From a virus: DNA of 22,908 nucleotides. Under the pieces are notes generated by a model that was given only the letters and a program-made list of their open reading frames with translations, did not search any database and was not told the DNA's origin. The first letter of the stretch is position 1. Every line of letters starts with the position of its first letter. The position numbers and the translations under genes were made by a program. Below are positions 4,094 through 22,548 of the stretch, one piece after another. The stretch is from the IMG/VR virus record IMGVR_UViG_3300028393_000353, positions 1-22,908 of that record. One strand, 5' to 3'.

Positions 4094-4347
4094 CAAACTA
4101 CTACACATCAATAGACATAGTTAATGGACAGTATGTTGGCACGGTTTATAATTCAAACAATAATGCTGAAATTTATAAATCAAAAACGTATACTAGTCAA
4201 CAACAAGTAACAGATGATGTAGATAATTTTTTAGCATCATTTAAACCTGTTAATAAAACACCTACCGGTAGTTATACACCAGGATATACAAATACAGCTA
4301 TTTTAAGACCTATAGTAGCATCTCCAGCAAGATGCTGCGGTAATTAA
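4090..4347 (+). CDS. Small uncharacterised phage protein (85 aa)
   Basis: I do not recognise this protein. It is 85 residues, rich in Tyr, Asn and Thr, soluble by composition, and begins with a strand-like stretch (YYTSIDIVNGQYVGTVYNS) followed by KSKTYTSQQQVTDDVDNFLASF, which looks like a helix. The C-terminus (RPIVASPARCCGN) carries a Cys-Cys pair two residues before the end. The start codon overlaps the stop of the hub-like gene (ATGA), so it is probably translated by coupling and may act with that protein. Its TAA shares bases with the stop codon of the convergent clamp-loader gene. A baseplate accessory role is only a guess from position. Confidence 0.6.
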   Translation: MTNYYTSIDIVNGQYVGTVYNSNNNAEIYKSKTYTSQQQVTDDVDNFLASFKPVNKTPTGSYTPGYTNTAILRPIVASPARCCGN

Positions 4348-5261
4348 AATAATTTTTGCAAATTAATACAGCAGCTAAACCAATTAATTTCTTTATCGAT
4401 AACAATACTATCTTTATACATATAATCAGAAATTAATATTAATACATCGCTATTAATAGTCTCATTCATACTATAAACAACTTCAAACATTTCCTTTAAT
4501 AGATGTAAATAATCTCCAGAAAATTCTTGCTCTCTTTCAATTACATATTTACGCAACTCAATTAAGCTAGTCTTTGCTTTAATTTTTTGTACTACATTTT
4601 CAGCAATATTTTTAACATGGTTATCCTTAACGACTAAAGTACCGGTATAGGAAAACTTCTGTATATCATTAATAATACGACGAAGATCAGGATAACCTTT
4701 TCTTACAAGTTCTACTAGTTTTGTTTTTTCTTCATTAGGTACAGTAATACCCTGCTGTTTAAGAACATGAACAACTCTATTTAAAACTCCATCGAGAGGC
4801 GGTGCAAGATTATAAATTTGACAACGAGATTGAAGAGCTGGTATTACCTTAAAGAGATAATTGCATGTAAAAATAAAACGTGTATTTTCAGAATATTCTT
4901 CAATTACATTACGAAGAGCTTTTTGAGAGTCTAATGATAAAGCATCACATTCATCGAAAAGAACTACTTTTAGTTTACCATCTAAAGATTTAGTAGATGA
5001 AAATCCAATTACTTTAGATCTAATAGTATCAATACCATTTTCATCCGATGCATTAATATAAAGATATTGACAGTCTAGTACATTACTAACAATAATTTTA
5101 GCTAACGACGTTTTACCTGTACCTGGTGAACCAGCAAAAAGAAGATTAGGTATTTCTTCTTTTTCTTTTAAAGAGACAAAATATTCTTTTTCTTCTTTAT
5201 TCAATACAATATCATCCAGTGTTTTAGGACGATACTTTTCTACCAGCAGCTCTTGAAACAT
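4344..5261 (-). CDS. 44: Clamp-loader ATPase, gp44-like (replication factor C small-subunit type)
   Basis: A 305-residue AAA+ protein, close to T4 gp44 (319 residues). In T4 gp44 and gp62 load the gp45 sliding clamp onto DNA for replication and late transcription. Visible motifs: the N-terminal VEKYRPKTLDDIV box (residues 8-19), Walker A GSPGTGKTS (44-52), Walker B VVLFDECD (99-106; Asp103, Glu104), sensor-1 FTCN (131-134) and the arginine-finger SRC motif (145-147), which are the clamp-loader hallmarks. The C-terminal 120 residues are helical, as expected for the collar domain. It is last in a minus-strand block after dUTPase, with a 15-base gap containing TATAATAG (minus strand) four bases before the ATG. 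No gp62 or gp45 gene is visible in this window. The 3' end overlaps the convergent plus-strand gene. Confidence 0.92.
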   Translation of the reverse strand: MFQELLVEKYRPKTLDDIVLNKEEKEYFVSLKEKEEIPNLLFAGSPGTGKTSLAKIIVSNVLDCQYLYINASDENGIDTIRSKVIGFSSTKSLDGKLKVVLFDECDALSLDSQKALRNVIEEYSENTRFIFTCNYLFKVIPALQSRCQIYNLAPPLDGVLNRVVHVLKQQGITVPNEEKTKLVELVRKGYPDLRRIINDIQKFSYTGTLVVKDNHVKNIAENVVQKIKAKTSLIELRKYVIEREQEFSGDYLHLLKEMFEVVYSMNETINSDVLILISDYMYKDSIVIDKEINWFSCCINLQKLF

Positions 5262-5265
5262 GTAG

Positions 5266-5273
5266 CTATTATA
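5266..5273 (-). promoter_or_regulatory. ATAATAG start-proximal motif (clamp-loader copy)
   Basis: TATAATAG (minus strand) four bases before the clamp-loader ATG, in the 15-base gap after the dut stop. Confidence 0.42.
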
Positions 5274-5276
5274 CGC

Positions 5277-5792
5277 TTACTTACCGGAAGATCCAAAACC
5301 TTTTTCACCACGATCAGTTTCTGTAACTTCTTCTGTAAACTCAACATACTTTTCATCTACAGCAATTAAGGGATAAAGTACAAGCTGCGCTACACGATCA
5401 CCTTTCTTTACTTGATAATCAATATCAGAACTATTAATAAGCCTTACACCCATATCCCCACGATAGTTATTATCAATAATACCATTGAAGGCTGAAATAT
5501 TATGCTTAAACTGAAGACCGGAGCGACTCTCAATACGAATCCAAAAACCAGGAGGTAATTGACCAAGCTTTAAACCAACCGGTACAATAACGGCTCCTTT
5601 AGCAGGTACAACAATATCTTCAACAGCCGTTACATCATACCCTGAATCACCAAAAATAGGATCGTTATGATTACGCTTTGGCAGTACTGCATCGGGATGT
5701 GTCTTAACAAACTTAAACTTATAAAGCTCTGTTAATGCCTCTGGATTTGTTTGCTGTAAAGTTTGTAATTCTTGTGCTGTCATATTACTCAT
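5277..5792 (-). CDS. dut: dUTPase (dUTP diphosphatase)
   Basis: Trimeric-type dUTPase, which hydrolyses dUTP to dUMP and pyrophosphate, keeping uracil out of DNA and feeding dTTP synthesis. With the start at 5792 it has 171 residues. All five family motifs are present in order: SGYDVTA (50-56), RSG (90-92), IDNNYRG (106-112, with the uracil-stacking Tyr), KGDRVAQ (130-136) and the C-terminal arm RGEKGFGSSG (161-170). About 35 residues precede the usual domain start. The frame could begin at a GTG at 5819, but that would overlap the upstream small gene by 35 bases. I prefer the ATG at 5792, which overlaps that gene's end by eight bases; an ATG at 5783 is also possible. No frame damage is seen. 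Confidence 0.93.
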   Translation of the reverse strand: MSNMTAQELQTLQQTNPEALTELYKFKFVKTHPDAVLPKRNHNDPIFGDSGYDVTAVEDIVVPAKGAVIVPVGLKLGQLPPGFWIRIESRSGLQFKHNISAFNGIIDNNYRGDMGVRLINSSDIDYQVKKGDRVAQLVLYPLIAVDEKYVEFTEEVTETDRGEKGFGSSGK

Positions 5793-5949
5793 TAATAAGT
5801 TGACGTCCAGTATATTCACCCTGTTTTACTTCACCGATTGGTGATTGACCAGGCTTAACAGCATTAGCTTGAAGCCAAGCAATAAGAGCATCAGTTTTTT
5901 CTCTTGGAACAATGAATGTTCCGTACATAGTATTTACAGTAATTTCCAT
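5785..5949 (-). CDS. Small uncharacterised protein (54 aa) upstream of dut
   Basis: A short minus-strand gene from ATG at 5949 to TAA at 5785-5787. The product begins MEITVNTMYGTFIVPREK, continues TDALIAWLQANAVKPGQSP and ends GRQLINE. It has the balanced amino-acid makeup of a real protein and fills what would otherwise be the only sizeable non-coding stretch of this block. Its last eight bases overlap the preferred dut start, suggesting translational coupling. It is the first gene after the divergent promoter region. I do not recognise a family; similar short proteins with a TFIVP strand and an aromatic helix occur in other large phages as far as I recall, but this is not secure. Confidence 0.7.
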   Translation of the reverse strand: MEITVNTMYGTFIVPREKTDALIAWLQANAVKPGQSPIGEVKQGEYTGRQLINE

Positions 5950-6001
5950 ATATACAATATATTAATAGATAGTTTAAGAATATCAACTATAAGCTTAATT
6001 A
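5950..6001. promoter_or_regulatory. Divergent intergenic region, presumed bidirectional promoter
   Basis: These 52 bases separate a minus-strand block (small protein, dut, clamp loader) from a plus-strand block (terminase small subunit, fibre tip, chaperone). Transcription of both should start here or just inside. The sequence is almost entirely A/T, with TATACAATAT near the minus-strand start and ACTATAAGC about 12 bases before the plus-strand start. I see no unambiguous -35/-10 pair and no clean T4 late promoter (TATAAATA), so only the regulatory role of the gap is inferred. Confidence 0.35.
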
Positions 6002-6505
6002 ATGTTAATGTCCGACTCTATTGACACACTACTTAACGAATTATCATCGTTTAGTTTACCCGTTACCCCTAAACCGTCTACACAAAGTATGAATGTAGAT
6101 GATTCAAATATTAATGAGTATATTGTTAAAAGAACTAGTCATTTAATAGATACTAGTATAGATGCTATCGATGATATTAAAGATTATATCGTTCAAGGGC
6201 AAAATCCCGATGAACTAGCAGCTTTATCAGAGCTTATATCTGCTGCTACAAAAAGTATAGAAGCATTAAACAGAATTAATCTTTTGAACAAAAAAGCGGA
6301 ATTTGATAAACAATTAAAAGAAATGGATATTAAAGGTAAAAAAGAAATAGCCGGTAATTTACAAGGTAATACCACTGTTAATAATACACTGTTTGTAGGA
6401 TCTAGAGAAGATATTTTTAAAAAACTTTTAAGTGAAGTAGATAGCGAACCTATTCAAGCAACAGTAATTGATTCAGTTGTTGTAGAGGAAAAAGAAGATA
6501 AATAA
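6002..6505 (+). CDS. 16: Terminase small subunit, gp16-like
   Basis: A 167-residue protein (161 if the second ATG at 6008 is used). T4 gp16 recognises viral DNA and stimulates the large terminase during packaging. The order of elements matches gp16: an acidic, disordered N-terminus (1-35), a central helical hairpin (about 36-112; two long amphipathic helices, one around DYIVQGQNPDELAALSELIS), then a short C-terminal segment VNNTLFVGSREDIFKKLL (126-143). That last segment parallels the NATVFMGSPTELMDEI stretch I recall in T4 gp16. An acidic tail ends the protein (VEEKEDK). The gp17 large subunit does not follow; a fibre-tip gene does, which is unusual. Tandem stops TAA-TAG close the gene and form part of an ATAATAG motif before the next start. 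Confidence 0.72.
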   Translation: MLMSDSIDTLLNELSSFSLPVTPKPSTQSMNVDDSNINEYIVKRTSHLIDTSIDAIDDIKDYIVQGQNPDELAALSELISAATKSIEALNRINLLNKKAEFDKQLKEMDIKGKKEIAGNLQGNTTVNNTLFVGSREDIFKKLLSEVDSEPIQATVIDSVVVEEKEDK

Positions 6506-6515: not shown

Positions 6516-6989
6516 ATGGCTAATATATTTACACCGGTAATACCTGCAACAGGACCTTGGACAATTAACAGAGAAGATTGTATAGGGGATTCTTTAGGTT
6601 ATATTAATGCTAATACAAACTATTTTGGTACACAGATTGTTGCGTTGTCAACAAACGTGAGTAGTATTTCATCTACTCTTACTAACCTTAATACAGTAGT
6701 AACGACTCTTTCATCTAGTTTTAAATCCAGCTTATCATCTAACGGATGGCAAAAATTTCCATCAGGGCTTATTATGCAGTGGGGCTATGCTCTAATAAAT
6801 GCTAATCCAGTAACATATAGCTTCCCTATAGCTTTTCCAAATAAAGGATTTCAAATATATATTTCTCAAGACGCTGATGCAAGTCAACCGGTAGCAGGCG
6901 GTCAGATTATAAGTAGTACTCAGTTTAAATTACGCTCAATGGGAGGATCAACTCAGGACGGTATATTTTGGTTTGCTATTGGTTGTTAA
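6516..6989 (+). CDS. Short tail-fibre / receptor-binding tip protein with gp53-like C-terminal domain
   Basis: A 157-residue protein with three parts. The N-terminal 45 residues (PWTINREDCIGDSLGYINANTNYFGTQI, split here by my reading into a capping segment) probably attach to another tail protein. Residues 45-76 are a Ser/Thr-rich heptad stretch (LSTNVSSISSTLTNLN onward), likely a short trimeric coiled coil. Residues 77-157 are a beta-rich tip with GWQKFPSGLIMQWG (77-90), SFPIAFPNKGF (102-112) and the closing FWFAIG (151-156). This is the signature of the C-terminal domain found at the end of many phage side-tail fibres. The next gene is a tail-fibre assembly chaperone, the usual partner. It is much shorter than typical fibres, so it may be a tip subunit rather than a full fibre. 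Confidence 0.75.
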   Translation: MANIFTPVIPATGPWTINREDCIGDSLGYINANTNYFGTQIVALSTNVSSISSTLTNLNTVVTTLSSSFKSSLSSNGWQKFPSGLIMQWGYALINANPVTYSFPIAFPNKGFQIYISQDADASQPVAGGQIISSTQFKLRSMGGSTQDGIFWFAIGC

Positions 6990-9047: not shown

Positions 9048-10018
9048 CTAGAATAAATCATCTTCTGAAAAAGACTGCGATTTCTTTGAGTATTCAACAG
9101 GACGACTATGAAAAAAGTCTGTCATATTATTACCGAGCAATTCTTCATTAAACCAATTTGACTTTTTGATTAATTCACTATCAATATCAAAAGCAGAAGG
9201 AAACCCGATACCTTTTAATGATTCGTTAATTCTACCTTTAATAAATTCTTTAAGAATAGGAGCTGATAACCCCTCTTCCTTTACTCCGTTGACCATCCAA
9301 TCAACAATTTTAGCTTCAGACTTATAAGCCTCTTGAGCTTCATGAAGAATGCGTTCTTCGAGTTCCTTATCAAAAAGTTCAGGATATTCTTCTCTAATTG
9401 TATTAATAATCTTTGTACCAACAATACCATGAATGTTTTCTTCATTGCGTGTATATTTAACTTTTGATCGGTGTCCTTAAGAACATTCTTAAAGCGTGCA
9501 AACCAGTTGATTACATAGAACTGTGAGAATAAAGAAACGTTTTCAACAAAGAGAGTAAAAAGAATAATAGCATAGAGATACTGCTTCTTTGAGTCCTTGT
9601 AGAACTTATGAGTATACTTACGAAGATATTTGACTCTTCCTTCAATCCATTCAAGCTTTAAGTTCTCTTCAAATACATCTTCGAGCCCGAGTATAGAAAG
9701 TAGGCGCTCGTAAGCGTTGTTATGAATAACCTCCGTATTAGCCATAACATAACCTAAATCCTGAAAGCAAGGTTGAGGAAGATTTTCCCCGAGCTTAGCC
9801 CAGAATGTCTTAACAGCAATTTCAATTTGTCCAATAGCTGATAAAGTACGAATAACAATTTCTCTTTCTTGTTCTGTTAGATTTACTTTAAACTGCTGAA
9901 CATCAGCTTTAAAGGAAAACTCTTTGTCTGTCCAGAATCCATTGTGCATAGACTCAATAAATTCGTCAGTCCATTTATAATTGTTAGGTTTGCGTGAGAT
10001 TTGTTCGTCGAATATCAT
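9048..10018 (-). CDS. nrdB: Ribonucleotide reductase class I, beta subunit, interrupted by a one-base frameshift
   Basis: Radical-generating partner of NrdA. Read from ATG at 10018 the frame is correct through residue 185 (ending KDTDQ), then shifts near 9462-9466; the shifted frame continues to TAG at 9048. Joined, the product is about 323 residues, a normal length for phage NrdB. Metal ligands in the first part are Glu66, Glu96, His99 and Glu159, with the radical Tyr103 (TEVIHNNAYERL). The last two ligands, Glu194 and His197 (EENIHGIVG), lie after the shift. The C-terminus (WFNEELLGNNMTDFF, then EDDLF) is typical of the tail that docks on NrdA. Without correction, translation reads 60 out-of-frame residues and stops at 9281, giving a product lacking two ligands. 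A sequencing indel, a recent mutation or recoding could explain this; an indel is most likely. Confidence 0.9.
9461..9466 (-). other. Frameshift site in nrdB
   Basis: On the minus strand the site reads GAT CAA AAG TT, with a run of four A at 9465-9462. Adding one A (CAA AAA GTT) restores an uninterrupted NrdB reading (DQKVKYTRNEENIHG). The same result would come from a -1 ribosomal slip after the CAA codon. The local sequence does not fit the classic X-XXY-YYZ slippery heptamer, so recoding is not well supported. Confidence 0.85.
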
Positions 10019-10693: not shown

Positions 10694-11188
10694 ATGGCTA
10701 TTAAAATTACACAACTACAAGATATTGCTAGTACATACGGTAATTTAGGTTATAGTTATAAAGATTTATCTTTAGATATTAATAAAACTAATATTATAGC
10801 TCCTGGTATTAATTACCCAATACCCGGCTCAGATATTAAAGTAAGTTATGACGAATATGCTATAACTAATTCTCTTACTAATTTGTTTAATACGTTTCCT
10901 GGGCAACGATTTTTATTTCCTGAATATGGCTTAAGTTTCTATCAATATTTATTTGAACCAATAACAGAGTATAATGCTCAGTTAATCGGTATGAATATTT
11001 TTAATAGTATAAAAAAGTACGAATCAAGAGTTACACCTACAAACGTTGACATTATTGCAGATCCTGATAACAATCAGTATATTATTACTATAAATGTTAA
11101 TATACCTCTTATTAACGTAAGTACAAGTATTAATTATAGTTTTAATATTCGAAGTCAAAAATTTATAAATATTACTAATATTGAATAA
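10694..11188 (+). CDS. 25: Baseplate wedge subunit gp25-like
   Basis: A 164-residue protein of the gp25 / 'baseplate wedge lysozyme-like' family, which in T4 sits in the inner baseplate and, with gp6 and gp53, starts sheath assembly. The family signature is clear: a core with IKVSYDEYAITNSLTNLFNT (48-67), then PGQRFLFPEYGLSFYQYLFEP (69-89), corresponding to the conserved PG-R-P-G-L-FEP stretch. After it come a helix (NAQLIGMNIFNSIKKYESRV) and a C-terminal beta sheet ending NYSFNIRSQKF. The gene is followed eight bases later by gp6, the standard partner and order in T4-like phages. The start is set by the divergent gap and an AATAATAG motif five bases before the ATG. Length is slightly above T4 gp25 (132 residues). 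Confidence 0.88.
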   Translation: MAIKITQLQDIASTYGNLGYSYKDLSLDINKTNIIAPGINYPIPGSDIKVSYDEYAITNSLTNLFNTFPGQRFLFPEYGLSFYQYLFEPITEYNAQLIGMNIFNSIKKYESRVTPTNVDIIADPDNNQYIITINVNIPLINVSTSINYSFNIRSQKFINITNIE

Positions 11189-11196
11189 CAATTTAT

Positions 11197-13029
11197 ATGG
11201 CAAACACCACAGTTACACCTCCACAAAACAAATTTGATATACCACCCGGTGGGTATGTAGCTTTTGATGCTATGTCTTTAAGACAGCTTATCATTGATCG
11301 TTTAAACGAACAGAATGTCTTTACAGATCAAAATTATATTGGTTCAAATTTAGCTTCTATTATTGATATTGTTTCATATTCTTATAATACTCTAATTTAC
11401 TATCTCAACAAAACATCTAACGAAGCTATGTTTACTGAAGCACAGCTTTACGAAAATATTAATAGAATTGTAAAACTTATTGATTATTCCCCGGTAGGGT
11501 TTCAAACTTCAACTTTAACCTTTAACTGTTCAGCTTCAAATTTACCTATAGGTCTTCATACAATACCACGTTACACGTATCTTACAACAAATAATATTGT
11601 TTATTCTTTTAATAAAGATATAACTTTTGCTAAAACCGCTGATGGTATAATTGAACCATTAACAATACTATCTCAAAATAATTTACTATATCAAGGAAGA
11701 TATATAGAACATCCCACTTACTCTGCTGCCGGAGATTCTAACGAATTAATAATTGTTAATCCAGGTAATAATGTACCTGATCATTTTAATTTCGATGTTT
11801 TTGTTAAACCTGCTGCAACAGGTATTTGGGAACAATTTACAAATACCCCTAATTTGTTTCTTGAAAAAGGTTCAGCTAAAAAATATCAAATACGTTTAAA
11901 TCAAAATTATAATTACGAAATAATGTTCGGTGATGATATAAATGGTATTAAGTTAAAAACCGGAGATTTAGTAGGTATATATTATATAGCTTCATCCGGT
12001 AAAGCAGGAGAAATTGGACCTAATACAATTGATAAGTCTGTATTAGCTACTTTTAATACTATTCAATTTAATCAAATTAAAAATGATATATTTATAAACA
12101 AATATAATTATCTTACTAATATTACTTTAAATAATTTAAGCTTTACTAACACAAGTAATTCAACCCCTTTTAATCAACCTGAATCTCCTGACGATATACG
12201 TAAAACAGCTCCAGCTAATTACCGTAGTCAATTTAGACTTGTAACCACAAATGATTATGAAACATTTGTAAATACAAATTACTCTAATTTAATTTCTGAT
12301 GTAAAGTGTCTCAATAATAATGATTACATAGCTGGTTACTTACAGTATTATTATAACATTGGTATTACTAACCCCAACTTAACTGAACGCGCTTTATTTA
12401 ACCAGGTATACTATTCCGATGCTTGTAATTTTAATAATATTTACTTACTTGTTGTACCACAAAGCTCAAATACAAAACCAACTTACCTTCTACCAGCGCA
12501 AAAACAGTTAATAAAAGCAGGTATATCAACAAATAATGTAACTACAACCGAAACTGTTTTTATTGACCCTGTTTTTAAAGCTGTAGGTATAGGTATTTCA
12601 TCATCAGCTTCTACATTATCTCCAACTACAGATGAGAGTTTATGTTACCTAGACGTTCATAAAGTACCTTCTTCTTTAAGAAACAATCAATCTATTATTA
12701 ATGATATCGTAAAGATATTTACAAATTACTTTAGTGTAAATAATAACAGTTTAGGACGAACAATTGGTACTCGTCAACTCACTCAACAAATTCTCGATGT
12801 AGATGGTGTACAAACATTTTACACTACAAGAAAAGACGATAGTACTATTCTTACAGAAGGTTTGTCTCTAGTAGTTTATAACCCTATTTACCCTGTTGCA
12901 GATAATAAATTTATTACAAATAATTTAGTAATGCAAAATTTTGAATATACTTATTTTAATAATATTGACACTCTTGTAAATAAGATAGTAATTGCGTCTC
13001 CTACTAATCTTAAGCAAACAGTACTATAA
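11197..13029 (+). CDS. 6: Baseplate wedge subunit gp6-like (baseplate J family)
   Basis: A 610-residue protein, close to T4 gp6 (660). In T4, gp6 forms the inner ring of the baseplate as wedge heterotrimers with gp7 and gp53. The N-terminus matches the family: SLRQLIIDRLNEQNVFTDQN (residues 27-46), then NLASIIDIVSYSYNTLIYYL and EAMFTEAQLYENINRIVKLIDYSP. A central beta domain carries IMFGDDINGIKLKTGD (about 247-262), the Phe-Gly-Asp...Gly motif found in baseplate J proteins. Then comes the PANYRSQFRLVTTNDYETFV helix-strand unit, and near residue 524 the TRQLTQQILDVDGVQTFYT end. It follows gp25 with an eight-base gap and ends with tandem TAA stops just before the first giant gene. Identity is secure from architecture and gene order. 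Confidence 0.88.
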   Translation: MANTTVTPPQNKFDIPPGGYVAFDAMSLRQLIIDRLNEQNVFTDQNYIGSNLASIIDIVSYSYNTLIYYLNKTSNEAMFTEAQLYENINRIVKLIDYSPVGFQTSTLTFNCSASNLPIGLHTIPRYTYLTTNNIVYSFNKDITFAKTADGIIEPLTILSQNNLLYQGRYIEHPTYSAAGDSNELIIVNPGNNVPDHFNFDVFVKPAATGIWEQFTNTPNLFLEKGSAKKYQIRLNQNYNYEIMFGDDINGIKLKTGDLVGIYYIASSGKAGEIGPNTIDKSVLATFNTIQFNQIKNDIFINKYNYLTNITLNNLSFTNTSNSTPFNQPESPDDIRKTAPANYRSQFRLVTTNDYETFVNTNYSNLISDVKCLNNNDYIAGYLQYYYNIGITNPNLTERALFNQVYYSDACNFNNIYLLVVPQSSNTKPTYLLPAQKQLIKAGISTNNVTTTETVFIDPVFKAVGIGISSSASTLSPTTDESLCYLDVHKVPSSLRNNQSIINDIVKIFTNYFSVNNNSLGRTIGTRQLTQQILDVDGVQTFYTTRKDDSTILTEGLSLVVYNPIYPVADNKFITNNLVMQNFEYTYFNNIDTLVNKIVIASPTNLKQTVL

Positions 13030-13035
13030 TAAAAA

Positions 13036-16000
13036 ATGTTACAGGCTAACTTTACAATAACACCCTCAGCAGGATTTGTTAACGCTACTCAATTTACCGT
13101 AACAAATTTAACTACAGCTAGTAACTCTATATGGAAATATATATGGAATACTGGTTTTAGTAATGAGCTTATTTACAATACAACAAGCCCTGTATTTACA
13201 TACCCGTACCCAGGTACATATACTGTCGGGTTAACAGCTACTGACTATGATGGTAATAGCAGCACTTTTAAACAAAGTGTATATATTGATTTAGCGTATA
13301 GAGATTATGTTACTTTTACTAAAATACCTGAACAGTATGCAAGCCCTGGAGCACCAACTCTAACACCGTTTGAAGTATCTTTTATTAGTACAGATATAAA
13401 CAATATACCTGTAATTGATCTTTACGCAGCTAATTCCGTTTCTACTCCTTATCAATTTGTACCTAACAAATGGGGATTTTTAACACCTACTTGGTATTTT
13501 ACTGACACTAATTCAAATATAGTAACATCCGTTACAGCAACACCTGTACCGCTATATGTAAATAATACAGTAGTAGCAGTATCAGGTTCAGTACAATTTT
13601 ATTATATAGATTCTAAAAGTGCAGGTAACCCTATTAATAACACACCGGTTCTTATAACAGCAACCTTACAAACATCTGGTTTTACAAATCCCAACGATTC
13701 AAATATATATTCATATCCATCATACGCTAATAATGAAACTGTACGTACCGGTTTAATATGGCTGATTAATGACCCACTACCTAGTTATCTTAAAGTTACA
13801 GCTAATTATTTACACGATATTGATTCATATCAATATAACGGAATAAAAATTCCTTTTTTAGTTACATGTCATTCAGATAGATCCTTAGTAGTACCAGGAT
13901 CAAAATCTTATACTAGTAATGTTCTTTTTTCCTATCCTACTTCTAATACCGTAGGTAATAAAGACCCGATACAGATTACATTATCAGGTATAGATTCATC
14001 CCTCTACACTATAGAAGATACGTCTTTATATTTTCAATCTTTAGATCAAAATTATAATGATATAGGTGGTTATATATTTACAGGGGTTACAGTATTATCA
14101 TCTATAGATGAAACCGCTATTAATGTTAACGCGCTCGTATACTCTGGAGATGTAAAAACAACAGACGTGTTTCCTTACCCTCATGGTTATTCTCCTAATA
14201 CATCTATTTGGGTCTCTAATCCTGAACAAAATACCCTCAATAAAATTACTTTAACACCATACAATAATGACAATAAAACAATTGAATATTTTAAAAATAA
14301 AGGCTTATTAATAGAAGGATATATAAAAGAAGTTCAAGTACCATCTTTAACAGGAACTAGTACATTTAACTACAACTTAACAGGGTTTTCAGGTATATAT
14401 AGTATGGCTATTGACCCTATAGACTACAGTGTTGTAGCTGCTGATACCGAACTTAATTGTTTATATAGATTTGATAATACCGGTAACCTTATTAATAAAT
14501 ACAGTTTTGATGATTACGGTAGTTATAATGTTAATGAGCTTACTTTTAAAACATGGCAATTTAATATACTAGATTTAAATTTTTATGACTCAGTATTTAA
14601 ATTAGATAGCTATATTGATGGAGTAAAACAATATGTTTCTACTAACCCTAATAATTTTATTGTTGCTATAGACGGAGTAGTACAACCTACAAGTTTATAT
14701 GTTGTATCTGATAACACATTAAGATTTACATCTTATGATTCTCTTCCTCCTGGCTCAGTTACTTTATCTATTACACAAATATTTTCTCCTCAACTACCTG
14801 ATTCTTATATTTCATCTATATGTTATTGGAATTTTACAGTTACAGATTCATCTACTATAGTTTATAATTTAGGTAATTCGGCAAGTTTAAATAGCGACAG
14901 TAATTATTATATAGTAACAATAGACGGTATTATGCAATCACCGTCTTCATATACTATTGATACTTTTAGTAATAGTATTGTTTTTGTTGATACAAATATA
15001 CCGGCTAATGTACCGGTACAGATATGGTATTTACCTTCCCTAACTAACCCAACAACTCAGACTTATAATTTATCAACACCTTCAAACACTATATTTCTAT
15101 CTAACAATATACCAATTACTAATGTAAATACAAATTTTTTGATTAATATTGGAGGTGTATATCAAGATTCTTTAACTTATGAGCTTGACACAGTTAATCA
15201 AAGTTTGTTATTTGATTCAATATTACCTGCCAATACTGATATTTTTATTACGTTAGCTAACTCAAAAAGTTTAGACTACTCGCCAGCAGGTACACCGGTT
15301 TCCGTTTCTTTAGATAAAAATTCTAATATATGGGTATCTTTATTTAACAGTGCCTATGTATTAAAATTTGATTCAAATTTTAATTTACTTTTTGCTACTA
15401 GCCCTTACGAATTAACTAATATATCTCCGTTAGCTGAATTTGATAGTGATTATTTACTTAAACCCCCTGTTTTAGAAACCGATAAAAATAACAATTGTTG
15501 GGTTACGTATTCTCACCCACTTTGTAGTTTACTTATACAATATAATTTAAGCGGTACACCAATTAACTTAATTAATTTAAACGACCCACTTCCAACAAAT
15601 TTATCTATTGATCAAAATTTTCAATATAGCGTACCTGTAAGTTTAGCTATTGATCAGGATAATAATATCTGGGTAGCAAACAGTTATAATGTTTTATCAG
15701 CAGACGGGGACATTAGGCTTTACGATAGCAAAACTTTACGAGTAAAAACTGTTATACCCAATATAACAAGACCTAGTGATATTACTTTAACAAGAAAAGG
15801 TAATATTTGGTTTACACATAGTATCAGAGGTTTAGGGTATTACGATATAGTAAGACAAGAATTATATTTGTGGTCAGCTAGTAGAGTAGGTGACGACCAT
15901 CTTACATTAAAACAAAGCCCTGGTTTACCAGGAAATATTAATGAAATAATAGACCCTGATGAATTAGTTAATATGGTACCGGGATCTAACATACCTATTC

Positions 16001-17094
16001 TTAATAACTACAGTGACGATGAAGAGTTTAGCGGTATAGCTGTAGATGTTTATGATAGACTATGGGTAATTGATTCTTATAAAAATACTGCATGGGTATA
16101 TCTATCCGCCATCCCTGCAGCTATTTCTAACGAACAAAGAATAATAAAAATACAACCTAACAACACTATCGGCTACTATTTAAATAATAATGCATTCACA
16201 TACACAGAATCCGGTAATTTTAACTATCAATCTGCACAAGCAGCCGGAGATTGGACCGGTAATAAATGGTATCAAAAATATACTTCTTTATCCTCTCTTT
16301 CATCAATTTCTATATCAGGTACATCTGTACCGTTTAAAGTTAAAGACTTTATTAACGAAAATCAAATAACAATTTTAAATAATTCTTTTAATACCGCTGA
16401 ACATTATCACTCTTTAGCATTACCTGAAAATTTACATTCTAATAAAGCTTTATTTGAGCAATTTTTACCCGCAGTAGTAGGCAACGGTACAGTAACTAAT
16501 AGTCAAGATCTCGGTAAAACCGTTTATGAAAAAATAGCTAACTTCGTGCAAAATCATTCTGATATTGATACATGTAATATATCTCAATTATTATCACTAG
16601 CAGCAGCAACAGATGTAATTGCAAATGAATATGTAACAGATTACCCATTTGAAATAAGAGATATGGTTAATACATTATCAATATCAAAAGCAAAGCTTAT
16701 CGGTGTAAATGAAATTACATCTCAAATTTTACAAAACACTGGTAACAAATATAATACAACTACAGATTATGTTACAGCGGATAGCACTATTATAGCTCAA
16801 AATGCATTTGATAAATCAATACAAATTATAAAAGTACCAAAACAAAATTTAACAACTGTTTACCCTCTATCGTCGTTTATTGGTTATGGACTTATACAGC
16901 CAATTACACAAAATTATAATTTTTATAATTTAGGTTCATATAATAATAATTTTTTCGATAGCATAATAGATTGGAATTCAGATCAAACTACTCTATCCCC
17001 GACAATGTCAACATTTGAAGATTGGTACGGAGACAATGGAATTGTTGAAAATACCTTTAGATACTTGTTAACTAAGAATCTCTTTCTTAAATAA
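13036..17094 (+). CDS. Giant modular baseplate/tail structural protein with PKD, beta-propeller-like and fibre-type modules
   Basis: A 1352-residue protein just after gp6, in the position of gp7 in T4. Residues 3-92 form a PKD-type Ig domain (YPYPGTYTVGLTATDYDG). Repeated propeller-like blades with an N-I-W-V core centre on Trp392, Ala468, Trp766, Trp822, Trp879, Trp925 and Trp1010 (for example AIDQDNNIWVANSYN), suggesting a six- or seven-bladed beta-propeller of NHL/Vgb type. Between the second and third blades, residues about 510-740 hold three tandem modules with an IDGV-x-Q motif (Asp546, Asp630, and Gly706 in the third), common in tail fibres. The C-terminal 250 residues are helical, then Tyr/Phe/Asn-rich, ending TFEDWYGDNGIVENTFRYLL. 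Structural and likely baseplate periphery (gp7-like) by position; sequence homology to gp7 is not established. No signal peptide or membrane segment. Confidence 0.6.
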   Translation: MLQANFTITPSAGFVNATQFTVTNLTTASNSIWKYIWNTGFSNELIYNTTSPVFTYPYPGTYTVGLTATDYDGNSSTFKQSVYIDLAYRDYVTFTKIPEQYASPGAPTLTPFEVSFISTDINNIPVIDLYAANSVSTPYQFVPNKWGFLTPTWYFTDTNSNIVTSVTATPVPLYVNNTVVAVSGSVQFYYIDSKSAGNPINNTPVLITATLQTSGFTNPNDSNIYSYPSYANNETVRTGLIWLINDPLPSYLKVTANYLHDIDSYQYNGIKIPFLVTCHSDRSLVVPGSKSYTSNVLFSYPTSNTVGNKDPIQITLSGIDSSLYTIEDTSLYFQSLDQNYNDIGGYIFTGVTVLSSIDETAINVNALVYSGDVKTTDVFPYPHGYSPNTSIWVSNPEQNTLNKITLTPYNNDNKTIEYFKNKGLLIEGYIKEVQVPSLTGTSTFNYNLTGFSGIYSMAIDPIDYSVVAADTELNCLYRFDNTGNLINKYSFDDYGSYNVNELTFKTWQFNILDLNFYDSVFKLDSYIDGVKQYVSTNPNNFIVAIDGVVQPTSLYVVSDNTLRFTSYDSLPPGSVTLSITQIFSPQLPDSYISSICYWNFTVTDSSTIVYNLGNSASLNSDSNYYIVTIDGIMQSPSSYTIDTFSNSIVFVDTNIPANVPVQIWYLPSLTNPTTQTYNLSTPSNTIFLSNNIPITNVNTNFLINIGGVYQDSLTYELDTVNQSLLFDSILPANTDIFITLANSKSLDYSPAGTPVSVSLDKNSNIWVSLFNSAYVLKFDSNFNLLFATSPYELTNISPLAEFDSDYLLKPPVLETDKNNNCWVTYSHPLCSLLIQYNLSGTPINLINLNDPLPTNLSIDQNFQYSVPVSLAIDQDNNIWVANSYNVLSADGDIRLYDSKTLRVKTVIPNITRPSDITLTRKGNIWFTHSIRGLGYYDIVRQELYLWSASRVGDDHLTLKQSPGLPGNINEIIDPDELVNMVPGSNIPILNNYSDDEEFSGIAVDVYDRLWVIDSYKNTAWVYLSAIPAAISNEQRIIKIQPNNTIGYYLNNNAFTYTESGNFNYQSAQAAGDWTGNKWYQKYTSLSSLSSISISGTSVPFKVKDFINENQITILNNSFNTAEHYHSLALPENLHSNKALFEQFLPAVVGNGTVTNSQDLGKTVYEKIANFVQNHSDIDTCNISQLLSLAAATDVIANEYVTDYPFEIRDMVNTLSISKAKLIGVNEITSQILQNTGNKYNTTTDYVTADSTIIAQNAFDKSIQIIKVPKQNLTTVYPLSSFIGYGLIQPITQNYNFYNLGSYNNNFFDSIIDWNSDQTTLSPTMSTFEDWYGDNGIVENTFRYLLTKNLFLK
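14560..15280 (+). repeat. Three tandem fibre-type modules within the giant protein (protein-level repeat)
   Basis: Three copies of a roughly 80-residue module begin near residues 510, 595 and 670. Each has a strand ending in (I/V)DG(V/I)xQ or a variant, then a Tyr-x-(I/L)D-type strand, then a hydrophobic strand with PAN or PPG near its end: NFIVAIDGVVQPTSLY, YYIVTIDGIMQSPSSY and NFLINIGGVYQDSLTY. The third has Gly for Asp. DNA copies are diverged, so this is an old duplication. Confidence 0.75.
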
Positions 17095-17100
17095 TTTATA

Positions 17101-20100
17101 GTGAGCACCGGTGTACAACAATTTTTAAGTAAGTATTCTCAGCCTTTATCATATACACCGTTAAATGATAAAAATATACCACTTTCATTTAAACAATGGA
17201 TTAATGCTCATCAAGGCATTATACCAGGTAGTGAATTTGAACAATACAACACGTATCTTTTAAACTGGTTTAATAAAAATAGTACATCTCAAACAAGTAC
17301 AAAAACTCATATACAGGTTAATTATCTTTTATTATTAAAACAATTACAGCTTTTCTTTTCACAAGAAGAAGCTGAAAATTGGTACAATAACGTCGATGTA
17401 ACTAATGAAAAAGAATTACTACTCGCTATACCTTATTTTGCTAAAAAACTTAAAGAAATATCTTTGTATTATTTACGTCTTAGAAAAGCAATAAAAGAAA
17501 CAAGATTTCTTTATAATCAAGTAGGTACGGAAGTCGGTACTATAAGTCAAATTCAAAATTATATACTTAACAAGTATACACAAAAACCAAATCAAATAAT
17601 TGAATTACCATCTTCAGTTTGGAATGCATCTCCAGCTTTAAGCGCTGTAAAAGACACATTAACAATACAAATAGAAGAATTATATGACACTCATAGCTAT
17701 TTTGATCATACAGCATCTATACCCACATCAGCTTATTTTAATTTAAATAATCCAAATTTACAAACTTTTTTAACAACAAAAGGTCTTTCATTAACATCAA
17801 CAAATTGGATTTATAATTTAGGTGTTTATTCTCTATCAGCCGACATAGCTAATACATCTACTATATTATCCGCAACTAGTGCATATCAACAAACATTATA
17901 TGATAATATTTTAACTCTTAGCAATCAGTTAGCTGAAAAATATATAGGACAGGAAAAATATTTTGTAACTCTAACTACTCCTCCTAGTACACAAAAAGAT
18001 TTATACGATATACAAATTCTAAAAGGAGATAATTCTTTTTATTGGCCTAGCGGTGCGTATCCAACACAAGGTATTAATAGCCCTCGATACGAAACTATTG
18101 CACTAAGCGCAACTAATCTTAATACATTAGGTACAGCTGGTACCAGTGTTGATTTAGCTGATACTCTATTTGTAGTATCAGATTTAGGTGTACAGGCAGC
18201 CTGGTTATATAATAAAATACACGATCATTCATTAGTTAATATGCAAGCTTTAATTAAAGCTGGAGATAAGACTATATTTCGTTACCCGTTTCCTGGTTAT
18301 GGTGTATCTGCTGAAGATATACAATGGTCCGGTTTTAGTTTATCAGCTGATTCAAGATATTTTTATCTCGATGATAATATAAAACAGCTTGTACTAGATG
18401 CTTATTGGACAACAGATATTACCACTCTTACTTCAACAAATATATTAAAACTTAACGATACAACTCTTGTAGCTAATAAGGCTTACGCTAGTATAGATTA
18501 TAATCAAGCTGATAAAATTAGAGTTTGGGATAATCCACCAGCATATAATAGTGCTAGTTATAATACTTATAATAATTCATTAAGTGGTGCATGGCTTTAT
18601 AAATTTAATAAAACCGATATATCTATAGCACCAAACGGTAATAGTACAATAGTTTGGCCTTATGAACAAATAGACCCGACACAAGATTATCCTGATTACT
18701 ATCAAAGCAACTTATCCAATATTTGTACCCCAACATATGTACAAAATATTAATGTACCATACGCTATTGCCGGTAACGCTTTATCGAGTGCTGACGTAAT
18801 TTATAAAATTAAAAAATATAACGATACAATTGACAACGCTATAGAGTGTTGCTGGTTATACGGACAATCAGTATCTTTATATTCATATTCTAGCGCTTTC
18901 AATTATATTGAAAAAGCTCAAACAATTCAGCAAACAAGTTTACAAGGTATTTTAAAGCCTGGTACCTTTACATATTTTACCTGGCTTGGTCCATCTTATA
19001 CAGTAAAAATTAGTGATGTGTTTCCTACATTACAACATCAATCCGATTGTAAGTTTATTACAACTCCCAATACAACGTATCAAGATCACAATCTTTGTAC
19101 ATGTAAACAAGTTTTATTTACCCCGTTCGGTTGCCCCGGTGATAGCTATTCTGATTATCCTTATCAAGGAGATTTTATAGCTATTGATACCCAATTACCA
19201 AGTAAATTTAATCTTGATACCTATCATGGTTTTGGTGGCTCTTATCCTTATTATAATTCTACAAATTCATTTGCTTGGTATAGAACTAATACCAAAAAAG
19301 GATGGGGTAACGGTCAATGGGTTAAAGGCGGTAAAAATGCTATTATAGGACTACAACCCGCTGATGATATGACATTTGTAAAAGGTATTCGTTACGTATA
19401 TTACCGCGCTGATGATACACGAAGCAATAGTACATTACCTGAACTTGTTCTTCGATACAATTATAATAACCCTACATACAAAGGTATATGGGTTGGTGCA
19501 ACATACGATACTATTACTAATACTTGGTATAGTAATAACAAAGCATCTTATATGACTATTAACCCTGGAGACAATATAATTTATTCTAGAGCTAATAGTA
19601 CAACATTTGATCTTGTACACCAAGTAACTACAAACGAAACAGTAGCTCAAAATTTAAGTTCTAACTGGTCTAATTATGATTTTTTAACTATTGGTAATAG
19701 TATCATTGGTACACCACAACAAGTAACAGTTTCTTATCCAGTTATTAATTTAAATAATACACAGTCTCCACCTGTACTCTCACAAAATGTTAATTCTTAT
19801 ATTTGGTCATTAAAAGCGCCAAATAATATAATAACTTTTTATAAAGATACACCATCATTTACGTTTACACCATACATTACTGGTTTATATACAGTTAATG
19901 TAAGCGCTATTACCAATCAATTATCTAGTAATAATTTTTATAATAGCGGTGCACCTTTAGTTAATTATGTTCCGGTAAGTTCTTTACCCGGTACTTATCC
20001 AAGTAATGCTTCAGACTCTAATCTTATAAATTATCTTTCAAAAACATATAACTATAATGCTAATAATTTAACCATTTTAAGCAAGACTACCGCTACTCCT

Positions 20101-22548
20101 GTATCAGCTTCTTATAATAATCTACCAACACTTTCTATTGTATACTGTCTTAATAGTTATATTTTTCCATTTTCTAATATACCGGCTATTACAGCTGTAT
20201 CATCCTCTCAGGTACAAATGCCCTCTATTACAAGTATTAATACACCCGTTCCAGGATTTGTACTTAATACACCTTTAAGTGGTTGGGATTATAATACATA
20301 TAAACCAAAAACATCTAAAACCAGATTTAATGACTCCGGAGCAGTACCTTTTTGGGGACAAATTTATTTACAAAAAAATATTAATACTAAATATAAAGGT
20401 ATTGAATCTTGGGGAACACCAATAAGATTAAAAGATAGTTATAATCTTTTAACTCAACCTGAATTTACTAATATACAACTTAACGCTGGTAGTTATATAG
20501 AATACACTCGTACATACCCAAGCAACTTAAATTGGATACAACCATTAGATTTATATCACTACGTTAATACAGCATATTGGGCTAATTTAAAATACGATAC
20601 AACATTAAACTCTAATTTATCTTATCAACTTAATAATATTAATACAACTGTTGTTGTTACCCCGGATACAGAAGCAACAACATTAGTGTTTGATAACTTT
20701 ATAAACAATAACCCTGTAGAAGTATTTTATTTTGCACAGAATTCATTCTTGTGGTCAATAACTGCTACCCCTACTATTGCAAATACGGTTTATACGGATC
20801 CAACAGTTACATTAGGTATTACAGCATTAAACCCTTGGGGTAATTTTTCTAATATAAACAACCCTACTGTAGCAGCATTTCCTTCATTTGAAAACCTTTA
20901 CAGTAATAATGATATTGGTTTTTTTACTCCAAGTAACTTAGGTATATCTGTATACAATGATCAGTATTACACAACTTCTCTTAATACATCATCAAGCGCA
21001 TTAACAGGTTATTTTGAAGATAGTGGTTCAATAGTTAATAGTAGAGGGCTTACATTAACAGACCCTTCAACACCCTACTCAGTAACTCTTGAAGATAATA
21101 CATGGCTAAAAGAAATTACATTATCTAGTCCTACAGCCGGTAATATTAGAAATAGTATATTTAAAAAATATCAAAAATTTGTACCTTATCAATCTACATA
21201 TGAAACTAATCCTAACGTTAGTGTTGGTTTAATTTTACCAAACTCAAGACAAACTCCTTGGGGCGGTAAAGAAGATTCAACATGGACAGATACAAAAAAT
21301 AACAATACATCTTTTACAGGAGTAGCTAATACAAATCAATGGTTTGGTTCTCAAATATTAAAGCAGAATCAAATTCAACTCGATAATTGGTGTACAGATA
21401 TTTACGGCAATCAATATGGGTTATATAAAGATATAAAAAATATTAAACCAGCTGATCGTAGAGATATTACAGGAGAGGTATGGGTCAGAAGCAATAATCA
21501 GTTTGTATCACCTGCATCAATAAGTTTATCAGGTATTTTCAACACATATATTGATACCAGTAGCTTATATAACGATTTAACTGGAACCGGTATACGTAAG
21601 ATAGATACGTTCTTTGATGTGTTATATGTTGAAACATCCGGAGCTGTTATTTTTGAAAAAATAAATTACGATTATACTACTGGTATTATATCAAGCTACG
21701 CTAACGAAACAAGAAGTATAACATTTGATTTACCGTCTCTTAGTTCTGTTTGGCCGTTTGCTACAATAATTCTACCTTGGACAACAAATTCTAGAATCGG
21801 TGAAACATGGTTCCTGCCAAATGAACAGAAAGTAATATTATCGATGTGTGGTTTATCAGGAAATATATTGCTTCCCGAGCTTTATCAAATAGATCTAAAC
21901 TCGCTTGAATTAAAATTAATTTTTCCCGTTACAAAAGATGATATAAAAACATTACAAACAAACTTAGTACTAGATAATACAATACTATCAATTGATTATC
22001 CTGTTTTATCGTATGACGACTTTAAAAAAGAGTTTGTTATAGCAGTTACTGGAAAAGATACTAATAATAAAGATAACCTTTTTGAGTTTAGTGTAAATTA
22101 TTTACCGACAAGTACACTTAATACAGTTACCGTATATACTCCTACTGTACATAATATATCATCAGATTTACCAATATTAACGTCTCCTCGCTCTATTACT
22201 ATTTACGATACTGATACGTTAGATTATAATTTAACTGTATCTAACGGACCAGCAAAGTATGAAGCAGTATACCTACCATCGTGGGTAACATTAACAAATG
22301 AAGGATATCTCACTGGTGAACCACCAGCTATTTCAAGCCCTGTATATCATTTTGCTACAATTGCTGTAACTAATGCAAACGGAACTGTTTATTACAGTAT
22401 AGCAATTAAAGAAATTGTCAATTACAACTTAGAATTACTTTACGCATCTCTCAGTACAACAAACACTGGTTATCTCAGTGGTTATGTATTAGAGCAGACA
22501 CTAAGCGGTACCAATATTGTAACAGGAAGAATAAAGCTACACGATTAA
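17101..22548 (+). CDS. Giant tail/baseplate structural protein (1815 aa) with Ig-like modules and a cysteine cluster
   Basis: The largest gene here, starting at GTG six bases after the previous stop. Residues 1-170 are helical and charged (LKEISLYYLRLRKAIKETRF), likely the part that docks on the baseplate; similar helical openings occur, as I recall, in very large virion proteins of marine T4-like phages. The rest is beta-rich, high in Ser/Thr/Asn/Tyr/Trp. Six cysteines lie close together: 583, 584, 650, 666, 668 and 678 (LCTCKQVLFTPFGCPGDSYS). Residues about 873-937 resemble a PKD/Ig strand set (FTFTPYITGLYTVNVSAIT). Residues about 1695-1768 look like a He_PIG-type Ig domain (LPSWVTLTNEGYLTGEPP). 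It sits between the other giant protein and a fibre-like gene, so a baseplate periphery or fibre-anchoring role (gp7/gp10-like by position) is the best inference. Function is unproven. Confidence 0.6.
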   Translation: MSTGVQQFLSKYSQPLSYTPLNDKNIPLSFKQWINAHQGIIPGSEFEQYNTYLLNWFNKNSTSQTSTKTHIQVNYLLLLKQLQLFFSQEEAENWYNNVDVTNEKELLLAIPYFAKKLKEISLYYLRLRKAIKETRFLYNQVGTEVGTISQIQNYILNKYTQKPNQIIELPSSVWNASPALSAVKDTLTIQIEELYDTHSYFDHTASIPTSAYFNLNNPNLQTFLTTKGLSLTSTNWIYNLGVYSLSADIANTSTILSATSAYQQTLYDNILTLSNQLAEKYIGQEKYFVTLTTPPSTQKDLYDIQILKGDNSFYWPSGAYPTQGINSPRYETIALSATNLNTLGTAGTSVDLADTLFVVSDLGVQAAWLYNKIHDHSLVNMQALIKAGDKTIFRYPFPGYGVSAEDIQWSGFSLSADSRYFYLDDNIKQLVLDAYWTTDITTLTSTNILKLNDTTLVANKAYASIDYNQADKIRVWDNPPAYNSASYNTYNNSLSGAWLYKFNKTDISIAPNGNSTIVWPYEQIDPTQDYPDYYQSNLSNICTPTYVQNINVPYAIAGNALSSADVIYKIKKYNDTIDNAIECCWLYGQSVSLYSYSSAFNYIEKAQTIQQTSLQGILKPGTFTYFTWLGPSYTVKISDVFPTLQHQSDCKFITTPNTTYQDHNLCTCKQVLFTPFGCPGDSYSDYPYQGDFIAIDTQLPSKFNLDTYHGFGGSYPYYNSTNSFAWYRTNTKKGWGNGQWVKGGKNAIIGLQPADDMTFVKGIRYVYYRADDTRSNSTLPELVLRYNYNNPTYKGIWVGATYDTITNTWYSNNKASYMTINPGDNIIYSRANSTTFDLVHQVTTNETVAQNLSSNWSNYDFLTIGNSIIGTPQQVTVSYPVINLNNTQSPPVLSQNVNSYIWSLKAPNNIITFYKDTPSFTFTPYITGLYTVNVSAITNQLSSNNFYNSGAPLVNYVPVSSLPGTYPSNASDSNLINYLSKTYNYNANNLTILSKTTATPVSASYNNLPTLSIVYCLNSYIFPFSNIPAITAVSSSQVQMPSITSINTPVPGFVLNTPLSGWDYNTYKPKTSKTRFNDSGAVPFWGQIYLQKNINTKYKGIESWGTPIRLKDSYNLLTQPEFTNIQLNAGSYIEYTRTYPSNLNWIQPLDLYHYVNTAYWANLKYDTTLNSNLSYQLNNINTTVVVTPDTEATTLVFDNFINNNPVEVFYFAQNSFLWSITATPTIANTVYTDPTVTLGITALNPWGNFSNINNPTVAAFPSFENLYSNNDIGFFTPSNLGISVYNDQYYTTSLNTSSSALTGYFEDSGSIVNSRGLTLTDPSTPYSVTLEDNTWLKEITLSSPTAGNIRNSIFKKYQKFVPYQSTYETNPNVSVGLILPNSRQTPWGGKEDSTWTDTKNNNTSFTGVANTNQWFGSQILKQNQIQLDNWCTDIYGNQYGLYKDIKNIKPADRRDITGEVWVRSNNQFVSPASISLSGIFNTYIDTSSLYNDLTGTGIRKIDTFFDVLYVETSGAVIFEKINYDYTTGIISSYANETRSITFDLPSLSSVWPFATIILPWTTNSRIGETWFLPNEQKVILSMCGLSGNILLPELYQIDLNSLELKLIFPVTKDDIKTLQTNLVLDNTILSIDYPVLSYDDFKKEFVIAVTGKDTNNKDNLFEFSVNYLPTSTLNTVTVYTPTVHNISSDLPILTSPRSITIYDTDTLDYNLTVSNGPAKYEAVYLPSWVTLTNEGYLTGEPPAISSPVYHFATIAVTNANGTVYYSIAIKEIVNYNLELLYASLSTTNTGYLSGYVLEQTLSGTNIVTGRIKLHD

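Follow-up and report, generated by a model that had tools for sequence, protein, structure and literature searches.

The window analysed here is a virus record of 22.9 kb from IMG/VR (IMGVR_UViG_3300028393_000353, 22,908 nucleotides) that belongs to an uncultured T4-like phage, and our subject is one of its open reading frames (ORFs), which encodes a protein of 1352 residues directly after the baseplate wedge gene gp6 (13036..17094, + strand). This protein is predicted to contain a closed seven-bladed β-propeller of the NHL type, into which a fibre-type arm of three modules is inserted between two blades. We lean towards the view that this protein is a wedge subunit of the baseplate, that it takes the position of gp7 in T4 and of gpI in P2 and pairs with gp6, and that it is equipped with modular decoration which probably faces the host. 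Wedge subunits are usually seen as the conserved engine of the baseplate and fibres as its variable part. Here, a protein at a wedge position possesses two nested modules that are separately lost or gained, and the resulting three natural states on one scaffold (no propeller, propeller, propeller with arm) form a ready comparative set. Such a set suits the question of what a baseplate propeller does, a role that the available text on phiKZ gp131 calls unconfirmed (PMC4901313).

The predicted propeller and its inserted arm

A preliminary description of the window, made from its letters, had proposed blade cores at W392, A468, W766, W822, W879, W925 and W1010, and all of these residues are found at the positions given; the stretch 14160-16120 assigned to them corresponds to residues 375-1028 of the 1352-residue protein. 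Pfam recognizes NHL just above the cut-off on one blade (residues 867-885, E 3e-4) and Reg_prop likewise just above the cut-off on one blade. The suspected kinship with NHL propellers was borne out when a profile of 22 relatives was compared with the PDB, in which it matched the designed NHL propeller Pizza6 (7.5e-18) and the NHL domain of PknD (6e-7). From an alignment of 58 sequences, AlphaFold2 modelled residues 300-1352 with a mean pLDDT (predicted local distance difference test) of 82.6 and a pTM (predicted template modelling score) of 0.58. In structural alignments with VIA-align 2 (VIA), the best match of this model was the propeller of 1l0q, which we take to have seven blades (Z 30.6, 2.5 Å, 284 residues), and the designed seven-bladed v31WRAP-T followed with Z 27.9 and 2.5 Å over 278 of 286 residues. 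The VIA alignments cover residues 388/389-1076, and the predicted seven-bladed NHL-type propeller, with the arm inside, is placed by profile and model at residues 388-1076 (14197..16263, +). Because the Foldseek list for the model mixes NHL, Vgb and WD propellers, the number of blades is taken from VIA, from the strands and from the seven motifs; the query TM-scores in that list are below 0.2 because the model is long. The closed propeller of the preliminary description is thereby supported at the level of prediction. The other possibility, that the tryptophan repeats belong to separate Ig domains, is ruled out by the AlphaFold2 model together with the fold matches over the whole propeller.

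The motif GDWTGN.WYQK at residues 1071-1081 is nearly invariant and is lost together with the propeller in relatives that lack it. This is consistent with a location at the closing strand, which probably lies near GDWTGN. At rank 24 of the Foldseek list stands a chain of the cyanophage A4 tail complex (9k09_U, query TM 0.19). phiKZ gp131 (4GBF) is not among the VIA matches listed, which excludes nothing. Vgb lyases and lactonases are among the fold neighbours of the propeller, and an enzymatic head, for example one that degrades surface glycans or acts like a Vgb lyase, could be imagined on this basis. However, many of the fold neighbours are non-enzymes, and Virginiamycin B lyase (Pfam Vgb_lyase) reaches 13.1 bits, far under its cut-off of 50, so that we think an enzymatic function very improbable.

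The distance between blades 2 and 3, first estimated as about 300 residues, was measured as 298. According to the strand reading of the model, the arm (residues 500-747; 14533..15276, +; model and profiles) follows strand D of blade 2 and precedes strand A of blade 3, which places it in the D2-A3 inter-blade loop. An arm projecting from a single blade had been proposed; the arm itself stands, and its site has to be moved from within a blade to the D-A connection between two of them. The three IDGV-x-Q modules expected in the gap are present, with the motif I-[DG]-G-[VI]-x-Q at residues 545, 629 and 705 and an extra IDGVKQ at 527 within module 1. A hidden Markov model (HMM) of the modules, run on L281, a copy of the window protein (numbering minus one), assigns module 1 to residues 504-588 (14545..14799, +), module 2 to residues 596-672 (14821..15051, +) and module 3 to residues 673-745 (15052..15270, +). 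In profile comparisons with the database size set to 1000, the best E-values were 2.2e-18 for module 2 against module 3 and 2.1e-13 for module 1 against module 2, and the weakest comparison, module 3 against module 1, had a median E of 0.38; as judged by these profiles, the three modules are mutually homologous. Every one of the 48 arm-bearing ORFs of the family that were scanned, a set with redundant loci, has exactly three modules.

The arm is the fastest-diverging part of the protein, with a mean pairwise identity (91 pairs) of 35.2%, compared with 50.8% for the propeller and 54.1% for the core. Length variation is likewise unevenly distributed. The D-A loops of propellers share one face, and all 36 expansions of more than 15 residues over the median that occur in 59 propellers are confined to three of the seven D-A loops. 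The remaining D-A loops and the 6 A-B, 7 B-C and 7 C-D loops have no such expansion (strand boundaries taken from the model of the window protein), and the B-C loops, which lie on the same face as the D-A loops, scarcely vary in length.

The fibre character that had been ascribed to the modules is supported by profile matches, because related modules occur in ORFs that match tail-fibre families. Other ORFs carry one, two or four modules of the arm type: an ORF of L279 combines four of them with Peptidase_S74 (8e-13) and phrog_1980, and single, weaker modules are found in L040 (Collar), L011 (Gp53-like_C) and L033 (phrog_4492). Further module-bearing ORFs, such as a 660-residue ORF of L037, which has a PKD domain, and one ORF of L283, lack a tail-fibre family match. 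Compared with the PDB, the arm modules gave weak matches only, of which the spore filament subunit 9n0b was the best (E 0.013), and the arm (14533-15276) matches DUF4183 below the threshold (E 0.0018). In view of these two matches, spore appendages may be distantly linked to the fibre modules of phages. The arm also matches phrog_21488, a family of unassigned function (E 2.9e-10).

Three natural states and their history

Relatives were collected by IMG/VR scans with three queries, which confirmed 32, 287 and 352 stretches, the best 80 being retained for the last two; a scan with a propeller-less protein as query gave 3 stretches. The resulting 153 loci overlap heavily, 138 of them contain the complete protein, and 62 remain after near-copies are collapsed (L002, identical to the window, is not counted among them). 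These 62 non-redundant complete relatives comprise 45 proteins with a propeller and no arm, 14 with both, including the window, and 3 with no propeller. In the arm-bearing proteins, an insert of 242-274 residues follows one and the same profile position, which is residue 499 of the window protein. The three propeller-less proteins (L055, L060, L085) lack, by profile positions, the segment that corresponds to residues ~374-1088 (14155..16299, +); the rest of the protein is kept and the flanks are smooth. A partial locus, L053, is also without a propeller.

All family data derive from metagenomic contigs, and an artefact of assembly or gene prediction has to be considered on that account. As the same architecture recurs in dozens of diverged contigs, and as two metagenomes yielded the propeller-less form in three complete loci and a third yielded it in one partial locus, such an artefact is hardly credible.

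A quick tree built from 636 core columns, with support from the Shimodaira-Hasegawa-like approximate likelihood ratio test, unites the propeller-less three in one clade (100) that is sister to two arm-bearing proteins (96) and lies within a larger group (99) in which 12 proteins bear an arm and 3 lack the propeller. Since the propeller-less clade is nested among arm-bearers, propeller and arm were, as read from this tree, lost jointly and secondarily. Two arm-bearers stand elsewhere in the core tree, L010 with the armless L019 and L020 (100) and L037 with the armless L017 (94). A single clade of all arm carriers and the propeller-less three was rejected by the approximately unbiased test (p-AU 1.2e-6), the group having been picked after the tree was seen. 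In the arm tree, L010 groups with L005 and L034 (90/92) and L037 with L003 (81/77), and these placements suggest that arms may have been transferred between lineages. The propeller tree groups the armless L017 with six arm-bearers (97), which would fit a loss of the arm in L017 rather than a transfer. That propeller and arm are lost or gained as whole units suggests that they are swappable, host-touching parts.

Alignment A3 included 58 of the 59 propeller proteins (L137 excluded), A4 38 sequences, and A8 13 of 17 arms; A5 with 48 and A6 with 45 of 61 excluded L137 and short, insert-bearing or near-duplicate termini. The tails of L022 and L079 that extend beyond the family were trimmed.

Some relatives deviate in other ways. 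Five armless proteins (L051, L059, L079, L110, L111) have an insert of 16-20 residues exactly at the arm position, which may be a remnant, an incipient arm or plainly a long loop. In L062, the family protein is divided between two ORFs (3077-4333 and 4337-6283), with the break close to where the propeller begins (profile positions 401/404); the half with head and anchor may be a polypeptide of its own, or else the reading frame is interrupted. L022 (7983-13661) has a family protein with a long, fused Thr-Pro-rich tail, 1893 residues in total, and the last stretch of this tail is similar to the PKD part.

Probable position in the baseplate wedge

The window gene stands directly after gp6 in a gp25-gp6 cluster, which is the place of gp7 and gpI. 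Its upstream neighbour is a gp6-like baseplate wedge gene (11197..13029, +; phrog_219, E 2.5e-34), which is preceded by a gp25-like one (10694..11188, +; PF04965, E 1e-12; phrog_261, E 7.2e-23). The adjacency to gp6 claimed in the preliminary description holds for the family as a whole: among relatives whose flank is long enough, gp6 is the immediate upstream gene in 59 of 59, and gp25 is near the family gene in 52 of 53 (neighbours were counted with an HMM or a single query at given cut-offs, excluding loci with too little flank). In P2, I comes after W-J; in Ci1, the gene after gp6 is gp7, as judged by homologues; and in the cyanophage Bellamy, an annotated wedge initiator of 4067 residues comes directly after gp6. 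An equivalence of TssF/TssG with gp6/gp7 and gpJ/gpI has been proposed in the available text of PMC6300606, and the window protein resembles T4 gp7, P2 gpI and TssG in its order after gp25-gp6 or W-J and in the register of its C-terminus with Tail_P2_I, where the sequence match is weak.

In that register, the C-terminal profile aligns with Tail_P2_I/gpI from the first LP to the RGT region (residues 1129-1225; 16420..16710, +) with an hhalign score of 22.5. None of 150 column shuffles reached this score (mean 12.4, standard deviation 2.2, maximum 20.0), and the reversed profile and the N-terminal core scored 11.3 and 16.9. When the Tail_P2_I profile was run against 1946 ORFs, the four best rows were C-termini of the family, with E-values of 0.14 and worse; they represent three proteins, one of them in two copies, and the N-terminus of the downstream neighbour was also among the low scores. 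T4-like gp7 itself scores only 20.3 against Tail_P2_I (probability 0.6, given without a shuffle null), so that a test of similarity to gp7 has little power. Among the T4-like and Bellamy proteins compared, none clearly matched the family or arm-module profiles, and a scan of IMG/VR with P2 gpI returned solely near-identical copies of P2 among the best 80 loci.

Several observations weigh against an assignment as gp7. The hhalign probability of the C-terminus against Tail_P2_I is 3%, and that of T4-like gp7 against the family is 0.2, which lies within the shuffle null. Pfam PF09684 matches 2 of 48 members with a best E of 0.012, and two unrelated Pfam families match more of them (5 and 3 of 48); among 49 records, one matches Tail_P2_I with an E of 2.8e-5, below the cut-off, and the other 48 do not. 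Three relatives (L055, L060, L085) have no propeller in the family protein, and the pTM of 0.58 for the models of both the window protein and L055 makes the placement of the domains unsure. Finally, the protein of 1815 residues encoded downstream (17101..22548, +), whose homologue in L037 and L035 also bears the arm triplet, could be gp7 instead.

If so, the window protein would be an accessory of the wedge that is specific to this lineage and clamps onto gp6; propeller and arm would decorate the periphery in this case too. The Bellamy wedge initiator shows that a giant gp7 is possible, and the N-terminus of the 1815-residue protein is strongly conserved and has a weak local match to Tail_P2_I (25 columns, score 18.3; 60 shuffles with mean 13.0 and maximum 21.3); against T4-like gp7, neither of the two proteins matches above the null. 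However, a homologue of the 1815-residue protein is directly downstream of the family gene in just 43 of 52 loci with enough flank, compared with the invariable position of the window family after gp6, and the long in-register match to Tail_P2_I belongs to the window family. We therefore regard a gp7 role of the neighbour as possible but somewhat doubtful, and think that the window protein is likely, although not proven, to be the gp7/gpI equivalent, as far as gene order and profile register can tell. The Bellamy wedge initiator (L160:571-12774) contains a YHYH domain (E 9e-21) and is another decorated protein at this place.

Outside the propeller, a PKD domain had been expected ahead of it and is indeed present at the N-terminus (residues 1-86; 13036..13293, +). 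Pfam PKD_4 matches residues 17-83 (E 1.2e-6, 28.9 bits against a cut-off of 27), and the PKD part in an AlphaFold2 model of the propeller-less homologue L055 aligns in VIA with 2c26 (Z 13.7, 1.4 Å, 85 residues) and 4jrw (Z 13.0). That model (620 residues, pLDDT 82.1, pTM 0.58) runs from PKD through β-sandwiches to a C-terminus that is helical and mixed. Residues 87-373 (13294..14154, +) accordingly appear, from this model and VIA, to be a shaft of Ig/macroglobulin-like β-sandwiches; the non-PKD sandwiches match only generic strings of Ig-like domains with large root-mean-square deviations. The C-terminal core (residues 1089-1352; 16300..17091, +) is kept in the propeller-less relatives. Of the helical, baseplate-like C-terminus in the preliminary description, a partly helical nature can be retained and a wholly helical one cannot. 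The C-terminus has no match by sequence in the PDB up to E 10 and scattered weak matches only in PHROGs; its fold is hardly probed by VIA because the lists are filled by the N-terminal sandwiches (L055) or by propellers (residues 300-1352).

Possible function, known propellers and accompanying genes

In the wedge-subunit reading that we favour, the C-terminal core would be the anchor in the wedge, the N-terminal PKD domain and Ig-like sandwiches would form a shaft, and the seven-bladed NHL propeller would be a removable head inserted between shaft and anchor, with the three-module fibre-type arm in one of its inter-blade loops. T4 gp7 is present in about six copies per baseplate, and by analogy presumably about six copies of the window protein would hold the head and its fast-diverging arm at the baseplate periphery, where, as the sheath contracts or before it does so, they may touch the surface of the host or a partner fibre. 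Such a host contact is favoured because of the precedents among phage propellers, the fast divergence of the arm, the joint loss and the fibre kinship; receptor contact by propeller or arm, as raised in the preliminary description, is an inference.

Propeller and arm could also be a structural socket for another tail fibre or for the downstream giant protein instead of a receptor-contact head. In L037, similar triplets occur in three different ORFs, as is expected if triplets pair mutually: besides the propeller triplet, there is one in the 1913-residue downstream protein and one in the 660-residue ORF, which are 74 and 62% identical to it (the other 13 propeller arms are 27-44% identical). 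The downstream protein of L035 also has a triplet, with 25% identity to that of L037 and a weak middle module (E 0.001). Moreover, the giant neighbour is missing from its place in the propeller-less L055 and L085. By contrast, L060 has lost the propeller and yet keeps the giant neighbour, and divergence is faster in the arm than in core or propeller, both of which speak against a socket; we see the socket reading as a tentative alternative. A role in holding fibres, or in pairing of triplets with one another, would also fit the fact that one phage can carry the triplet in several of its proteins. More speculatively, and with limited confidence, one may think of a plug-in system in which the propeller head is inserted in the gp7/gpI equivalent, the arm forms a closed three-module knob set into the face of the head that varies, and further virion proteins of the same phage receive copies of the triplet. 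If this were true, a lineage could gain, lose or duplicate its contact element as one unit and leave the wedge unchanged.

Propellers in phage structural, tail and adhesion proteins are already known. A seven-bladed propeller at the baseplate periphery is described for gp131C of the Pseudomonas myophage phiKZ, for which the available text speculates on a receptor role and calls it unconfirmed (PMC4901313, PMC6115969); that propeller is, by its description, a C-terminal domain, whereas the one in the window is internal, contains an arm and belongs to a protein encoded after gp6. Staphylococcus phages phi11 (gp45) and 80alpha (gp61) also possess a propeller in the baseplate region, regarded as a putative receptor platform, but according to the excerpts at hand it has five blades and is part of a trimeric receptor-binding protein with a coiled-coil stem in a siphophage (PMC4901313, PMC7048315). 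A large structural protein of phAss-1 likewise combines N-terminal Ig-like domains with a predicted β-propeller; it is a putative capsid protein with a C-terminal propeller, and the available portion of the paper does not mention an inserted arm (PMC10607447). The large myovirus CBB has propeller proteins, one of which was found in the virion, but these are of the Kelch type, and neither a wedge position nor an insert is mentioned in the accessible text (PMC5259590). The archaeal S-layer protein 1l0q, with a YVTN propeller, shares the combination of propeller and PKD domain and differs in being a cell-surface protein in which PKD comes after the propeller. The top fold match of the propeller-less core is A0A6J7XER1 of an uncultured Caudovirales phage in BFVD (E 9.8e-32, 1172 alignment columns), which is annotated merely as 'PKD domain containing protein'. 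Among the literature matches listed, which mostly do not cover subscription journals, none describes a protein at the wedge position whose removable propeller encloses a fibre cassette that is itself removable, and no title or abstract start suggests this protein family.

By tblastn, no relatives of the window protein, of the propeller-less L055, of the distant L070 or of the arm were found in cultured phages, and bacterial and archaeal genomes gave a single weak match, in the NHL part. The window gp6 has only distant relatives in cultured phages, all below 60% identity and below 30% among the matches listed, which come mostly from Synechococcus and other cyanophages and from Klebsiella phages.

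A second NHL-bearing protein of 1287-1507 residues occurs in related contigs (L154:5343-9464, -; L155:4108-8628, -; L156:3426-7559, +; L157:4940-8800, -), among them a near-identical contig of the window and that of the propeller-less L060. Its NHL matches are above the cut-off in 3 of 4 copies; the family profile does not detect it, and cultured phages gave no match to the copy in L154. In the window itself, an ORF truncated by the window edge (1-1005) contains a long Asn/Thr-rich repeat, and a small ORF of the tail-fibre type lies at 6516-6986 (Gp53-like_C, E 1.2e-15). Two overlapping ORFs at 9048-9296 and 9281-10018 on the minus strand (82 and 245 residues) resemble the β subunit of ribonucleotide reductase by eye; L055, L060 and L085 have a single ORF of 323-324 residues in place of this split gene, which may reflect a sequencing error or a real break.

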